Origin: a virus
Length of the DNA stretch: 20,169 nt
Reading direction: 5' to 3' (one strand)
Virus record (IMG/VR): IMGVR_UViG_3300025849_000288
Location: 1-20,169 of that record
In this document: piece by piece, positions 2,262 to 17,852 of the stretch
How the letters are laid out: each line of letters starts with the position of its first letter
Numbering within the stretch: the first letter of the stretch is position 1
The notes under the pieces: generated by a model
Told to the model about the DNA's origin: nothing
Databases searched by the model: none
Seen by the model: only the letters and a program-made list of their open reading frames with translations
Position numbers and translations under genes: made by a program

Positions 2262-2636
2262 ATGACATTTATTAGCAAAATAAAAGCAGGAGATTTTAAC
2301 CAAAAGATAAGGTTATTTACAGTAGGGAATAATAAAGATGCGTTTGGTGGTGTAACCGAATTCCGTAGTACTTTCCATCTTGTTTGGGCAAATAAAAATG
2401 TAAAAACTCTCAGAGATATTGAGGAAAAATTTGAAGGAGAAGAATTACAATCTTATGGTAGGTTTGTTTACACTATAAGATATTCAGATACGACTAAAAA
2501 TATTAAAGCTAATTGGGTTATTGAAGACCACGAAACAAGTGAACGCTATGAGATTTTAGGTTTTGTTATAGACCCTCGTAAAGAGTTTATTGAAATATTT
2601 GTTAAACAAGATTTACCAACGGAATCTCCTTTTTAA
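2262..2636 (+). CDS. Phage head closure protein (SPP1 gp16-like)
   Basis: The 124-residue protein follows the connector by three bases and fits the head-tail joining/head closure family. It begins with GDFNQKIRLFTVGNNKDAFG (the family pattern is L..RI.l........G), then has VWANKNVKTLRDIEEKFEGE and an E-rich beta C-terminal half ending YEILGFVIDPRKEFIEIFVK, matching the usual w.I.G...d....l.l.. end. In family members this small beta-barrel protein plugs or closes the portal-connector channel. Its place between connector and neck protein agrees. Confidence 0.85.
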   Translation: MTFISKIKAGDFNQKIRLFTVGNNKDAFGGVTEFRSTFHLVWANKNVKTLRDIEEKFEGEELQSYGRFVYTIRYSDTTKNIKANWVIEDHETSERYEILGFVIDPRKEFIEIFVKQDLPTESPF

Positions 2637-2637
2637 A

Positions 2638-3168
2638 ATGGCTAAACCAAAAAAGAATCAAAACTTTACAATAAAGGTAGAAGGAGTTGAAAGAGTTAAA
2701 AGAGGACTTAAAAAGCTAGGATTAACCGCTAAACAATCTCGAACTGAAATAAATAAGGCTCTTAGACCATCTGCAAATATGCTTTCAAGAGGTATTCGTA
2801 AGGCTTATAAGAACCAATTTAAAAGTAAGAACCCTGGTCGAAGATACGATCCAACATCCAAAAGCTATAAGCAAGGGATGAGAACGGCAGATACGATTGG
2901 AGTGATTACAGCAAGAAAGTCAAAGCAACCTGGGTTGTTTGTTGGACCAAGATTAAGAAAAGTAAACCCACACTATTTTAAAGGTAAGACAAGTAAGAAT
3001 CTTGCTGCAATGCAAATAGAAGGGTATAAGGATAGGTCAGGAAGTATAGTTAAATTTCCTAATGTATTTGAGATAACGGCAAAATCAATGGGAAGTCAAG
3101 TATCAGCAAAGGCTCAGAAAGACTTAGGCAAGTTGATAGATAAAATGATAAGAAAAGCAGGATTTTAG
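2638..3168 (+). CDS. HK97 gp10-like neck/tail completion protein
   Basis: I place the start at the ATG one base after the previous stop (MAKPKKNQNF..., 176 residues). A longer in-frame form from TTG at 2590 would overlap the upstream gene and add no family-like sequence. The protein is very basic. It opens with FTIKVEGVERVKRGLKKLG and LRPSANMLSRGIRKAYK, as in the HK97 gp10 family (i..G.del...l..l.......kal...a..l....k...p), and it has GPRLRKVNPHYFKGK and a family-like C-terminal helix. Gp10-type proteins complete the head-tail interface before tail attachment. The gene order supports the call. Confidence 0.8.
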   Translation: MAKPKKNQNFTIKVEGVERVKRGLKKLGLTAKQSRTEINKALRPSANMLSRGIRKAYKNQFKSKNPGRRYDPTSKSYKQGMRTADTIGVITARKSKQPGLFVGPRLRKVNPHYFKGKTSKNLAAMQIEGYKDRSGSIVKFPNVFEITAKSMGSQVSAKAQKDLGKLIDKMIRKAGF

Positions 3169-3990
3169 ATGTTTGCAGTAATAGGACAAAAAATATTTCA
3201 AAAATTATGTGATAATCTTCCCTTTAGAGTTGCTAACGGAGAGACTATTGGTGGTGAATTAATACAAAACACTCATTTAGCTACTACGCAATATTGGTTT
3301 GTGTATAATACACCCCCAAGGTATTATTATGCTTCAAACAATAAAATATTTTTTTACTCTACAGATGCTAATGCAGATGCAGGTATTTTTGCAAGTATAA
3401 ATATAGAAAATAATAAGAAATACATAATTGAAGCAGAAGGGTTTTCTCCGTTTACAACCACTTGGTCTATTGGAGGCTCACCAGGATCAAATAGTGTTTA
3501 TCAAAGTGGTGTAATACCTGAAGGTAACTTTAAGGTGTCTTTACCTTTTACATCAAATTCAACTGGCTACAGATTTCTTCAACTTTTTGCAAACTCAAAT
3601 AATATCAGCCAATCTTATTTAAGTAAGATTAGTGTAAAAGAAGTTGCTACCTCTTGTAAAGTAACACCTGTAATTATACCACAAGGAACAGAATACCCTG
3701 CGACAACTTACGAGATAGCAAACGTATCTAACTTTATGTCTAAAGGTGGTTCATTAAATTCTTGCGATGTATCAATAAACATATCTTGTTTTGCTGATGG
3801 GTACGCAACTACATATAACCAAGCTAAAGCAGTTGTAGAGGCTTTAGACTTGTACAAAGTTACTTATACTGAGGATGGACAATCCTATACGGCTAAATTT
3901 AGGTTTATAAACCTAGATGACGAGTATTATAAGCAACCCGAAAAATTCTACAAAAACTTAACTTTCAACTGTTTAATAATTAAAAACTAA
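3169..3990 (+). CDS. Tail terminator (DUF3168/gpU-like) with a large inserted sandwich-like domain
   Basis: This 273-residue protein starts immediately after the previous stop. Its ends look like a DUF3168 tail-terminator protein: N-terminal helix FAVIGQKIFQKLCDN (residues 2-16), then from about residue 164 KVTPVIIPQGTEYPATTYEI (family pattern P...PQG..yP...Y), and a C-terminal half with YNQAKAVVEALDLYKVTY and a final beta strand. Between them, residues ~22-160 do not belong to that family: GGELIQNTHLATTQYW at the start and SYLSKISVKEV at the end resemble the ELVTNGDF...W...IDNVSVKE pattern of carbohydrate-binding-module-like jelly-roll domains found in many phage proteins. The core should cap the tail tube; the insertion would be displayed on the outside near the neck. 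Core role fairly sure, domain fold inferred. Confidence 0.75.
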   Translation: MFAVIGQKIFQKLCDNLPFRVANGETIGGELIQNTHLATTQYWFVYNTPPRYYYASNNKIFFYSTDANADAGIFASINIENNKKYIIEAEGFSPFTTTWSIGGSPGSNSVYQSGVIPEGNFKVSLPFTSNSTGYRFLQLFANSNNISQSYLSKISVKEVATSCKVTPVIIPQGTEYPATTYEIANVSNFMSKGGSLNSCDVSINISCFADGYATTYNQAKAVVEALDLYKVTYTEDGQSYTAKFRFINLDDEYYKQPEKFYKNLTFNCLIIKN

Positions 3991-4407: not shown

Positions 4408-4707
4408 ATGAAAAAGGTAGAATTAGGCGGTCAAGAAAGACCAATAAGATTTAGTTATTTAGCTTTAAAAGACATTTGTAATAAGTGTGGATTAAAGTTA
4501 AGTGAAATGAATCAGTTAGGATCGGAGATAGACCACATTGGTATCATCACATTCTTTGGATTAAAAGCAGGAGCTAAAAAAATTGGCGAGCCTTTTAAGT
4601 ACAAAGTAGCTGATATTGAAGAATGGTTAGATAACGAGGAGTTTAATAAGATAAACGAAATATTTGAGGCTTTCCAACTTGACCAACCTCAGAACGAGGG
4701 AAAGTAG
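4408..4707 (+). CDS. Tail assembly chaperone, short form (gpG-like)
   Basis: The 99-residue product MKKVELGGQERPIRFSYLAL... lies between tail tube and tape measure, where every long-tailed siphophage encodes its chaperone pair. It has the usual features: a short beta start, helix LKDICNKCGLKLSEM, the middle IDHIGIITFFGLKAGAK and an acidic helical end (EEWLDNEEFNKINEIFEAF). It should bind the tape measure protein and hold it soluble for tube assembly. Its stop at 4705-4707 follows a perfect slippery heptamer, so a fraction of ribosomes make the extended form described separately. Confidence 0.8.
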   Translation: MKKVELGGQERPIRFSYLALKDICNKCGLKLSEMNQLGSEIDHIGIITFFGLKAGAKKIGEPFKYKVADIEEWLDNEEFNKINEIFEAFQLDQPQNEGK

Positions 4708-5075
4708 TTAAGGGAGAGGAGGTCGATGATGAATCGGGAGAAATTAACTGGGACAAACTCGAACAGATAGGATTAGGTAGAATGGGGTTAGGTTGTGATG
4801 AACTTTATAGCTTAACCCCACGAACCTTTAACAATCAGTTAATGGGATTTAATCAGTATCAAGAGCAACTGATGCGTGATAGATGGGAGCAAACAAGGAT
4901 GATAGTACATTCTTGCATTGCACCACACTCAAAGAAAACACTTAAACCAAAAGAGATCCTTCCTTTCCCTTGGGATAACAAGTCAAGAGGTAGAAAAATA
5001 ATAGCCTCTAACGAGCAAATAGCTAAAGATGTCGCTAGACATAAACAGGTATTACTAAAATTAAATAAAGAATAA
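4408..5075 (+). CDS. Tail assembly chaperone, -1 frameshift fusion (gpGT-like)
   Basis: The second frame is open from 4683 (a TGA at 4680-4682 closes it upstream) to the TAA at 5073-5075. It is in the -1 frame relative to the short chaperone. After slipping at 4698-4704, translation resumes at 4704 as VVKGEEVDDESGEINWDKLE and continues with IGLGRMGLGCDELYSLTPRTF, a pattern typical of T-part chaperones (W..l...G.G.lG....e...LTp.ef). The fusion would be 222 residues. An independent start at ATG 4782 would drop the conserved INWDKLEQIGLG part, which argues for frameshifting rather than a separate gene. The stop overlaps the tape measure ATG by one base (TAATG). Confidence 0.8.
4698..4704 (+). 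promoter_or_regulatory. -1 ribosomal frameshift slippery heptamer GGGAAAG
   Basis: G GGA AAG is in the zero frame of the chaperone gene, exactly X XXY YYZ, with the stop TAG as the next codon. The same heptamer is the known slip site of lambda gene G/T. A purine-rich stretch (GGGAGAGGAGG, 4712-4722) follows; its role, if any, is unclear. Confidence 0.85.
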
Positions 5076-7219: not shown

Positions 7220-9751
7220 ATGGCATCATACGGAAAGTATAAGGAATCAATTATAGAAGGTGAGAAGGGTACTAGTTGGTATGTTGAAGTTCATAAAAAA
7301 GATTACGTAGACTTTATAACTAATAACTCATTTATTAATGGGTTATCGGGTTGGACGAGTTTAAACACCTCACTAAATCCTTTAGGTGGAGTAAAGGTGG
7401 GTTCTCAAGCAGGTTCTTTTTCATATTTACAACAACAAAGCCTTAGTTGCGTAGATGGTACTGCGTACTATGTTACCATAAAAGTAAGTGGTACTAGCGG
7501 TAATTCATTTAAAGTAAGGCTAAATAGTGTAAGTTCATCAGATTATGTTACCTTGACAGGTGATGGTACTCATAAACTTCAAATTACAGCAGGTAACAAT
7601 TCTACTGATGGTTTATATATAATTAATAACGTAAATAGCGTTTTATCATCTTTTACTGTAGAATCAGTAAGTGTAAGTGAAACAGAATATAACACTCAAG
7701 ATTTACTACTTTCAGGAGAGGGTTTTCATATTACTTGGAATGGAGAAGGATCTACAAGGGATAGAACATTTATAGGTTCTGAATGTTCTTTAAATATGTT
7801 TGTTAGAAATGATGATGAAGAATTATTTTTATATAACATATTAGATAGTGGTTTTAAAAAATATTTTATTAGAATATTTAAAGGAAGCTCTAGTGTAAAC
7901 TCAAATATTTGGTGGTATGGATATATTCAACCATCTTTTGACGTTGTAGAAAACCTACCTTATCCATACGTTTCACAAATAAACTCTACAGACTCTTATG
8001 GTTACTATAAAACACAACCATTTACGCTATTTCAAGGAGGGGCAAATTATACTGTAGAGGTTGCTAAAAACTCAAACCATTCAATTTCTAAAATATTTTT
8101 AGATTTCATAAAGAATATGGAGTTATTTAGCACATCTACATCAGATGGACCTTGCCCTGATAATGTGCCATTAATAACTACAGGAATTAATTGGACTACA
8201 CAAGCTCAAAAAAATTTAACTTTTGATCCTGCTAATAGGTATTACTTTTGCAAAGGAGCTTACGCTGATAATAAAGACTTCCCCTTGGAATACAATGAAT
8301 TTGATGTTATAAAAGATGTCTCTAGAGTTATGAACTCTACTGGTTTCTTAGCAGAAGGTTCTTATTACTTTTTACAACCTAACATATACTTAAACAATAC
8401 AACTGCTACAAGTAAACTATATGAATACTATGACGTAGCATCGGCTGAATATTTTGTTAATCCTAGCCCAACCCCAACAACAGGGTCTAATGTATCAAGC
8501 CTACTTACTATAGACCAATCTAGTCACGCAATAGTAAATGGGTCTGCTTTTGTGTATGAACCTCCATTAAAATCGGCTTCTGTTACATTTGATTCTCAAA
8601 CAAAGCCTTTTGAGATGTCTCCTCAAACTGAATTAGACAACAATGTTGAATATATGTCGGGTCAGCTACTAGCTAATACGACTTATAATTTAAATTTCAA
8701 CCTAACTCGCTCTGAAGATATAGATTTAGATAATGTTAGCACTTCAAATAACGCAGGTTGGCTAGGTCAATCTAGCGGTATGAAGGTAGCACATAGTACA
8801 TTTTCTTGTACAATGGATTTAGAAATAAAAGTTACCGATGGTACTAACACTAAATATTTAGCTGTAGACTCTACTATAGGTTTTACGGATTATGGGACTT
8901 TTTACAGATACCCAAGGCTAATATGGACTGATTTACAAAGACCTATAACACTACATAGGGGTTATGGTTATCCTGATTCAAGTTACACTTATTATTCAGA
9001 GACTTGGAATAATAGTAATTCTGTTGGTAGTTACGCTAGTAATGATAACACTAATGGACCTTGTTATATTGAAGAAGATTGGATAGGTGGGCAGGGTTAT
9101 ACCCCTGGAGTTAAAAACTTTAGGGTTGACTTTAACTTTAGTTCTGATATACCTGAAATTGATTTTAATGGAACTGTTTTTGTAAAAATAGATGTTGATC
9201 CAATTAAATTAAATCAAAGGGGTACACACACTTTTCCAATGCAAACTTACGCACAAACTACTATATTTCCTTTAACAGCTAATACAAGAACTAATGTTAC
9301 AACTACTGTAAACGAATTAACTACAATACCTTACGTTTATAGTTCTACTCAAGTTGTTACATCTAAATATACTTCAACTCAAACAACAAATTCAGCCGTT
9401 GAAAATAAAGATTTAGGAGGTGTTAAAGTAGGTCAAACATCATCTAATCCTGCTTTTTCTGTTAGAGATTTTTACAATATTCCTATAGCTTCTTTTTTTC
9501 AAAGAGGTTTAGATGATAGTAGTTCGGCTGCCTTAAATCAGTTATTGGTTGATGAGTATTTAGATATGCAAGTTACACCTCTAAAAATACTACAAGGGGA
9601 CATACAAAGTAATGATATATCTCCACTTAAAATAATAAAATATTCAATAAACAATGATGGTAATTACGAATACTTTATGTTTTTAGGTGGTACTTTTAAA
9701 GCTCAAAGTGAAATTATGAGTGGTGAATGGTTTAGATTAAAAAAAGGTTAA
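7220..9751 (+). CDS. Tail-tip (distal tail/baseplate hub type) protein with an inserted sandwich-like domain
   Basis: The 843-residue protein follows the tape measure, where distal tail and hub proteins are encoded. Its start MASYGKYKESIIEGEKGTSW, then YVEVHKKDY, and after a gap LLLSGEGFHITWNGEG, STRDRTFIGSECSLNMFV, WWYGYIQPSFDVVENLPYPY form a pattern I recognise from Bacteroidota phage tail-tip proteins. Residues ~32-155 interrupt this pattern with a separate module (FITNNSFINGLSGWTSLN to SSFTVESVSVSE), again like a jelly-roll carbohydrate-binding-type domain. The remaining ~600 residues are beta-rich with many aromatic residues, consistent with receptor contact. No catalytic motif was seen. 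The general tail-tip role is well supported by position; the host receptor is unknown. Confidence 0.7.
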   Translation: MASYGKYKESIIEGEKGTSWYVEVHKKDYVDFITNNSFINGLSGWTSLNTSLNPLGGVKVGSQAGSFSYLQQQSLSCVDGTAYYVTIKVSGTSGNSFKVRLNSVSSSDYVTLTGDGTHKLQITAGNNSTDGLYIINNVNSVLSSFTVESVSVSETEYNTQDLLLSGEGFHITWNGEGSTRDRTFIGSECSLNMFVRNDDEELFLYNILDSGFKKYFIRIFKGSSSVNSNIWWYGYIQPSFDVVENLPYPYVSQINSTDSYGYYKTQPFTLFQGGANYTVEVAKNSNHSISKIFLDFIKNMELFSTSTSDGPCPDNVPLITTGINWTTQAQKNLTFDPANRYYFCKGAYADNKDFPLEYNEFDVIKDVSRVMNSTGFLAEGSYYFLQPNIYLNNTTATSKLYEYYDVASAEYFVNPSPTPTTGSNVSSLLTIDQSSHAIVNGSAFVYEPPLKSASVTFDSQTKPFEMSPQTELDNNVEYMSGQLLANTTYNLNFNLTRSEDIDLDNVSTSNNAGWLGQSSGMKVAHSTFSCTMDLEIKVTDGTNTKYLAVDSTIGFTDYGTFYRYPRLIWTDLQRPITLHRGYGYPDSSYTYYSETWNNSNSVGSYASNDNTNGPCYIEEDWIGGQGYTPGVKNFRVDFNFSSDIPEIDFNGTVFVKIDVDPIKLNQRGTHTFPMQTYAQTTIFPLTANTRTNVTTTVNELTTIPYVYSSTQVVTSKYTSTQTTNSAVENKDLGGVKVGQTSSNPAFSVRDFYNIPIASFFQRGLDDSSSAALNQLLVDEYLDMQVTPLKILQGDIQSNDISPLKIIKYSINNDGNYEYFMFLGGTFKAQSEIMSGEWFRLKKG

Positions 9752-12840: not shown

Positions 12841-13228
12841 AGTTAATAGATATAGAAGTGGATATGAGAAGGATGTTTGTGCTAGGCTTGATGACCTTGG
12901 GGTTCGTTTTGAATACGAGACTAAGAATCTTTATTATGAAGTATCGGAGCAAAGAAAATACACGCCCGATGTAATATTGCCTAATGGTATTATCTTAGAA
13001 TTAAAGGGAAGGTTTACAGCAACAGACAGAAAGAAAATGCTACTTGTTATAAATCAACACTCCGATTTAGATATACGGATGGTATTTCAAAGGCACACAA
13101 ATAAATTATTTAAAGGAAGTAAAACGACCTATTCTGAATGGTGTGAGAAACACAACATCAAATGGGCAGATAAACAAATACCAATAGAATGGATAAAGGA
13201 AAGCAGAGTAAAACAGCTGAAGAAGTAG
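12800..13228 (+). CDS. T7 endonuclease I-like Holliday junction resolvase
   Basis: The 142-residue protein aligns by eye with phage T7 gp3: YRSGYEKDVCARL, FEYETKNLYYEV, YTPDVILPNG, ILELKGRF, LDIRMVFQR, KTTYSEWC and a final IPIEW. The active-site set E23, D57, E67, K69 (counting from ATG 12800) matches the E/D/E/K of T7 endonuclease I. It cuts branched DNA such as four-way junctions, clearing recombination intermediates before packaging. A second in-frame start at ATG 12824 (MAGFGKVNRYRSG) would reduce overlap with the HNH gene from 41 to 17 bases and may be the true one. Its end overlaps the next small gene by 40 bases. Confidence 0.9.
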   Translation: MKKIKRTTMAGFGKVNRYRSGYEKDVCARLDDLGVRFEYETKNLYYEVSEQRKYTPDVILPNGIILELKGRFTATDRKKMLLVINQHSDLDIRMVFQRHTNKLFKGSKTTYSEWCEKHNIKWADKQIPIEWIKESRVKQLKK

Positions 13229-13329
13229 CCGAACAAGTATTTGGTAACTGGATTCAAGACTTAGAAGATAAGGATCAACCTGATGCTTGCGATATAGATG
13301 ATGAAGATTGCGAAGCTTGTGGTAGTTAA
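13189..13329 (+). CDS. Small acidic Cys-containing protein, unknown
   Basis: A 46-residue frame, MDKGKQSKTAEEVAEQVFGN..., from ATG 13189 to TAA 13327-13329, overlaps the resolvase end by 40 bases in another frame. The last 20 residues are strongly acidic with three cysteines in DACDIDDEDCEACGS (C-x6-C-x2-C). The final half lies outside any other gene, keeps an open frame up to the terminator and has sensible codons, so it is probably expressed. No family was recognised; metal binding is only a guess from the cysteine spacing. Confidence 0.5.
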   Translation: MDKGKQSKTAEEVAEQVFGNWIQDLEDKDQPDACDIDDEDCEACGS

Positions 13330-17195: not shown

Positions 17196-17449
17196 AATTC
17201 AGAATTTAATTGATTATACTCGTTAACAACTTCTTTGACGAAGTTAGCAAATTTTTTTGAATTTAACATTTCTTCTACTAAAATCTCTCTTAGTATCTCT
17301 CCATCGGTTCGTACATAGGCTCTTGTAATAAGTTCTTCTTCAGGTTCAAAATCCTTATCTTTAACTTTACACTCTGCCGATATAATAATGTACTCATCAC
17401 AATTCTCTGTGATTTCTTCGTGTGCTACATCTAGTCTATCTATTTTCAT
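17192..17449 (-). CDS. Unknown acidic protein
   Basis: The 85-residue protein (MKIDRLDVAHEEITENCDEY..., then KDFEPEEELITRAYVRTDGE, ILREILVEEMLNSKKFANFV) looks like a small alpha/beta fold with an acidic middle. No family recognised. It overlaps the DnaA-like gene by 14 bases upstream and the SSB gene by four bases downstream, so it is translated within the replication block. Any role in replication rests on this context only. Confidence 0.6.
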   Translation of the reverse strand: MKIDRLDVAHEEITENCDEYIIISAECKVKDKDFEPEEELITRAYVRTDGEILREILVEEMLNSKKFANFVKEVVNEYNQLNSEL

Positions 17450-17852
17450 AAAGATTCATAATTTCATCAGTTTTATCTTTAATGGTTAAACCTGATGTTA
17501 ATATTTCAGAAATTCTAGTTTTTCTATCAATGCTAAATATGTGCTGTATATCACCTTTAAACATAGATTTTAAAAACTGATAATCTTTATCGTACTCAGT
17601 TAATATCTCAAAAGTTTTGTTTGAATGAAGTACAGTTGAATGATCCCCATTAGTTAGTAAACCTATCTCAGATAACGTCAAGTCATCACTCATACAAAGG
17701 TAGTACCGAAGGGAATGTCTAGCGTTGGTTATGTTTCTTAACCTAGACCTACCCAATACTTCTGAATTTGTTACTCCCCAGTACCTTGTTACTAATGATA
17801 ATCCTTCTTTTAATCTTCTTTTACCATAAGGTGTTGCTTTCTTGCTTCTCAT
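17436..17852 (-). CDS. Free-standing DnaA domain IV-like DNA-binding protein
   Basis: The 138-residue protein contains the DnaA C-terminal duplex-DNA-binding domain: VTRYWGVTNSEVLGRSRLRN (about 21-40), ITNARHSLRYYLC, LTLSEIGLLTNGDHSTVLHS (about 58-77). GDHSTVLHS is the DnaA signature (xDHTTVxHA) that reads DnaA boxes. The ATPase domain III and other DnaA parts are absent. A basic N-terminus (MRSKKATPYGKRRLKEG) and a C-terminal helical extension (~90-138) complete it. It may mark the phage origin, compete with host DnaA, or act as a repressor. It overlaps genes on both sides by a few bases (ATGA with the exonuclease gene). Confidence 0.85.
   Translation of the reverse strand: MRSKKATPYGKRRLKEGLSLVTRYWGVTNSEVLGRSRLRNITNARHSLRYYLCMSDDLTLSEIGLLTNGDHSTVLHSNKTFEILTEYDKDYQFLKSMFKGDIQHIFSIDRKTRISEILTSGLTIKDKTDEIMNLYENR

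Follow-up and report, generated by a model that had tools for sequence, protein, structure and literature searches.

The tail terminator ring is usually seen as a structural cap. Terminators are hexamers at the top of the tail (PMC11784142, PMC10721106), and in R4C the helices of the terminator lie at the ring periphery (PMC10276861). Larger terminators have been described, with sheath-contacting or duplicated C-terminal domains (PMC11784142). Among other virion proteins, modular Ig-like beta sandwiches decorate tube, capsid, baseplate and fibre proteins and are thought to aid adsorption, and the five classes of virion protein reviewed as carrying such domains omit the terminator (PMC9022992). 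In the lactococcal 936 phages, one carbohydrate-binding module (CBM) from the neck and one from the tail, expressed as GFP fusions, bound host cells (PMC6669499).

The DNA analysed here (the window) is the 20,169-nucleotide viral record IMGVR_UViG_3300025849_000288. An intact, ATG-initiated open reading frame on its plus strand (3169-3990) encodes a 273-residue, gpU-like tail terminator whose fold is split by an inserted domain. A PHROG search finds the tail-terminator family phrog_347 over residues 160-266 (E=3.6e-4), and residues 161-230 match, by tblastn (E 7e-4), a 138-residue Caulobacter phage protein annotated as 'tail terminator' in two of five matching records; the Pfam model Tail_completion_gp17 falls below cut-off (E 0.24). 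Synteny agrees with this identity. The gene order is capsid, gp6-like connector, head closure/completion, gp10-like, terminator, tail tube, chaperone and tape measure, such that the gene occupies the position expected of a terminator, between the head-completion/gp10-like genes and the tail tube gene, and Caulobacter phage TMCBR2 has the same order with an uninterrupted terminator. Contigs L001 and L002, from other metagenome records, encode proteins 99% identical to that of the window, indicating that the 273-residue frame is no assembly artefact. Nothing in the phage collection matches the capsid protein of the window, and for the tape measure there are distant matches only.

Several other features of the window were recorded. 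The gp10-like frame (2590-3168) overlaps the head-completion gene if started at the TTG at 2590, and the ATG at 2638 is the more likely start. Just before its stop codon, the chaperone gene (4408-4707) carries a lambda-type slippery heptamer, G GGA AAG (within 4697-4707), phased so that a -1 shift there would continue in the frame of the ORF at 4782-5075, as in a gpG/gpGT-like pair; the heptamer is kept in the window and in 12 of 12 relatives checked. On the minus strand, 17436-17852 encodes a small protein with the DnaA C-terminal DNA-binding domain (PF08299, E=6e-11) and no ATPase part, perhaps a phage origin-binding protein. The sign of the GC skew changes at about 13 kb (13000-13300), coinciding with the turn from plus-strand virion genes to minus-strand replication-type genes, which points to a sharp module boundary.

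Searching IMG/VR with the full-length terminator returned 13 full-length relatives, every one with the middle part, and insert-free relatives were retrieved by querying with the conserved core alone. A sequence-only reading of this DNA had proposed that one terminator is interrupted by residues ~22-160 and had suggested comparison with short homologues; such proteins exist, and all seven (L032-L038) place the interruption at one common position. They are 135-136 residues long, with cores that are 79-80% identical to that of the window in L032, L033 and L034 and 63-68% identical in L035-L038. The junction reads MFQVIGKKVVSILSGYVNFITANGSHKVFPVIIPQG in the closer three and MFAVIGQKIVTRLNSQSAFTTANGSNKVFPV in L035 (core 68% identical), with similar junctions in L036-L038, so that the empty sites show ANG or the like, two residues, then K/R-VFPV. 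In the window, MFAVIGQKIFQKLCDNLPFRVANG is followed by 139 residues and only then by KVTPVIIPQG. From this alignment the insert comprises residues ~25-163 (139 residues) and the core restarts at K164; the borders proposed earlier were right to within about three residues and are refined accordingly. Thus, on the plus strand, 3169-3240 encodes residues 1-24, the N-terminal helix and the start of the helix 1-strand 1 loop, ending in ANG; 3241-3657 encodes the CBM-like beta sandwich; and 3658-3987 encodes the remaining core (residues 164-273), which is 63-95% identical in relatives with or without the insert. Since those relatives do without it, the domain is in general dispensable. An intein was rejected, as the insert alleles begin with E, K, S or V, have no terminal His-Asn and have a jelly-roll fold instead of HINT.

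An AlphaFold2 model built from 20 sequences of the protein's own group (pLDDT 75, pTM 0.51, at which the mutual orientation of the domains is unreliable) has a helix at residues 2-14, an all-beta segment at 27-159 and the core at 164-273, the core blocks having pLDDT of 49-87. In comparisons by Foldseek and VIA-align, the discontinuous core (model residues 1..272) matches the GTA terminator 6tba (Z 13.8, 129 of 134 residues, 3.7 A) and T5 p142 8bcp (Z 12.4, 134 residues, 3.6 A), in agreement with the terminator fold of a lumen beta-sheet with two flanking helices. The N-terminal helix and the block from residue ~164 onward therefore form one terminator fold, as had been read from the sequence. 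The proposal that the intervening part is a separate, carbohydrate-binding-type jelly roll held up equally well when the structure was predicted and its folds searched: residues 24-162 align over about 125 residues with CBM4, CBM16, CBM22, CBM29 and a porphyran-binding CBM (Z 12.5-14.6), and nearly all of the best structure matches are CBMs. Identity to these structures is about 3-18%, so the likeness is one of fold. Pfam searches of five inserts gave no CBM models up to E=10, the families that the insert hit in Pfam and PHROG were all sub-threshold and mutually inconsistent, and a PDB profile search gave only the CBM16 of AlyQ (E=0.13); the insert is consequently named CBM-like by fold only. 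No conserved aromatic patch on a binding face was assignable in the insert, and its invariant W43, Y85 and F127 may be core residues. The top viral structure match of the whole model is BFVD entry A0A516M9I3 (281 residues, E=3e-10, most of both chains aligned), perhaps a further terminator with an insert, perhaps a protein of two domains.

Insert-bearing relatives are 83-95% identical to the window in the core and 26-74% identical in the insert. More than 15 diverged insert alleles are nonetheless open, in frame and 138-142 residues long, with 14 invariant positions. Between the window and L003, dS is similar in the two parts (0.24 and 0.19) and dN is 0.19 in the insert vs 0.03 in the core, giving dN/dS of about 0.8 and about 0.15, respectively, a pattern of relaxed or diversifying selection on the insert. 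In most pairs the insert dN is well below dS, for example 0.20 vs 0.96 for L009/L010, indicating purifying selection. Third-position differences at conserved codons are concentrated in the insert for L009/L010 (38/95 vs 7/103 in the core, p=1.8e-8) and L012/L024 (39/83 vs 9/104, p=2.6e-9), and run in the opposite direction for L073/L024 (15/119 vs 25/86) and L029/L030 (5/131 vs 15/103), the weaker p-values of these last two (0.004 each) to be weighed in light of the 14 pairs examined. Silent-site divergence that is unequal in both directions indicates that the insert has its own history and that its alleles recombine. A diversity-generating retroelement is not favoured as the source of this variation, given the many silent-site differences in the insert and the lack of a recognisable reverse transcriptase among the window genes scanned.

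In a tree of eight structural-module proteins encoded around the terminator, the insert-bearing genomes all lie to one side of a single branch (support 91); support in a tree of the terminator core only is too weak for placing gain or loss. The insert is absent from the terminators of lambda, T5, the GTA, R4C (140 residues) and the Caulobacter phage, making a single gain the simplest reading. One insert searched by tblastn against 50,697 phage records gave no matches, and thus at that sensitivity no cultured relative carries it. A match to an archaeal MAG in a scan of GTDB genomes was false, being a 943-residue membrane protein that shares a YPATTYEI stretch.

The terminator is not the only virion protein of this group with such a domain. 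The Dit-like hub protein of the window (7220-9751, 843 residues) has its own insertion at residues ~31-158 (7310-7693, plus strand), which is empty in five relatives (L067, L069, L071, L075 and L078), where a short SGTS or SGSS stands instead. The model here is of low confidence (pLDDT 66) and matches CBMs best, with Z up to 8.2, which would be weak if taken alone. A second, later hub site is filled in L064, L066, L067, L075 and L078 and empty in the window. Many relatives also encode a second tube protein, of 254-275 or 561-583 residues; no second tail-tube gene was seen in the window. In the long form (L073:1258-2994, with equivalents in L071, L072, L074, L075 and L078) an internal domain of ~175 residues splits the tube fold into two PF06199 stretches, and the protein ends in a C-terminal CBM-like domain. 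By HHalign, the terminator insert matches this tube C-terminal domain along almost its entire length (E=2.7e-9, prob 96%), with control comparisons to tube and terminator cores giving E above 0.1, and hub site 2 matches the same domain at E=1.3e-8. The direct match between the terminator insert and the hub insert of the window is weak (prob 18%, E=1.3e-3); against the pooled terminator inserts and tube C-terminal domains, the hub insert reaches prob 90% (E=1.6e-6). HHalign found nothing between the terminator insert and the internal domain of the 561-583-residue tube proteins, and for that reason the internal domain is treated as of a different kind. All second tube proteins (L065-L068, L070, L071-L075 and L078) were also seen to have about 100-140 extra residues at positions ~10-130, between the opening residues of the tube domain (MAIxNAS) and the remainder of it.

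Filled and empty sites are combined differently from phage to phage. Tentatively, and with a likelihood a little short of even, one diverse family of CBM-like cassettes fits fixed sockets in several virion rings, namely the helix 1-strand 1 loop of the terminator, two hub sites and the C-terminus of the second tube protein. The sockets would be filled or left empty independently and the alleles would recombine, so that from neck to tail tip the virion would present a combinatorial surface for glycan adhesion, in which the terminator is a newly recognised socket.

For the terminator insert itself, the fold, expected exposure, variability and lactococcal CBM precedent suggest that it is probably an auxiliary glycan adhesin at the neck. 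Because known terminators (lambda gpU, T5 p142 and others) are hexamers, a ring that closes the tail tube where it meets the head, with a CBM-like jelly roll in the helix 1-strand 1 loop of each subunit, would bear six extra domains around the neck. These would most likely serve as low-affinity grips, keeping the virion on polysaccharide of the cell surface or the environment until the tail tip finds its receptor, and swapping of domain alleles between phages would change binding specificity.

The same loop adjoins stopper and neighbouring-subunit contacts, and the idea that the insert is a structural clamp, steadying the terminator ring or the head-tail joint without binding glycan, is therefore kept as a rival, albeit an unlikely one. 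The 22-29 loop of T5 p142, taken to be the equivalent of the helix 1-strand 1 loop of the window, takes part in subunit contacts (PMC11784142), a TP901-1 model shows the helix 1-strand 1 loop in contact with the stopper ring (PMC10747895) and local stability was the role proposed for an Ig-like domain of the R4C adaptor (PMC10276861); the insert is also stably present across one clade. However, an interface would not be expected to change so much faster than the core or to be exchanged by recombination, cores 80% identical to that of the window manage without the insert, and hub and tube proteins bear related domains. That the domain changes fast, exchanges alleles and is dispensable is more easily reconciled with binding on the outside of the virion than with a joint inside it.

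Such binding could be directed at protein, either on the host surface or elsewhere in the virion, and not at glycan. Jelly-roll sandwiches of CBM-type fold are also known in protein-binding contexts, and the related hub domain matches, among other structures, the ephrin-receptor ectodomain 4bkf (Z 6.8), yet the prevalence of CBMs among the top matches of the terminator insert makes this improbable, though fold alone does not fix function. The chance is slimmer still that the insert is a tolerated passenger, acquired once by recombination, folding by itself and kept without real function. The existence of insert-free relatives and the weak constraint seen between the window and L003 are what such a passenger would show, but its alleles would not be expected to keep their frame, length and invariant positions through so much divergence, to be under purifying selection in most pairs, or to have similar domains recurring at other virion sites.

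If glycan adhesion by the insert is true, a fast-evolving domain of sugar-binding type lets the neck itself adhere, with no need of a separate collar protein. The natural occurrence of both filled and empty rings offers a direct way to ask whether neck decorations aid adsorption, and the multi-socket pattern provides a means of tracing the movement of adhesion domains among virion genes of uncultured phages.

Compared with described terminators, residues 1-24 and 164-273 of the window protein have the same fold and the same place in the gene order as lambda gpU, T5 p142, the RcGTA terminator and R4C gp18, and the 131-161 residues of those proteins are close to the 135-136 of the empty-site relatives, but all lack the 139-residue domain. 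What has been called the 'insertion domain' of the R4C terminator is not a comparable counterpart, since that whole protein has only 140 residues. In larger terminators the extra domains are sheath-contacting or C-terminal, whereas that of the window is CBM-like and follows helix 1. The insert shares the jelly-roll fold of CBM4, CBM16, CBM22 and CBM29 modules over 115-136 residues but has no significant sequence match to them and no attached enzyme, and the Ig-like virion domains belong to another fold family. The 936 phages likewise carry CBM-type domains, variable between phages, on the neck (neck passage structure), the tail tube (the tail extension TpeX) and an evolved Dit, although their neck CBMs end a separate, collar-forming fibre protein, unlike the domain within the terminator itself, and the sequence families and the phages are unrelated as far as seen. 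No carbohydrate-binding-type insertion in a terminator came to light in a limited search of the open literature. CBM or Ig domains are already known as decorations of neck, tail tube and Dit, and the new element here is the placement of such a domain inside the tail terminator.
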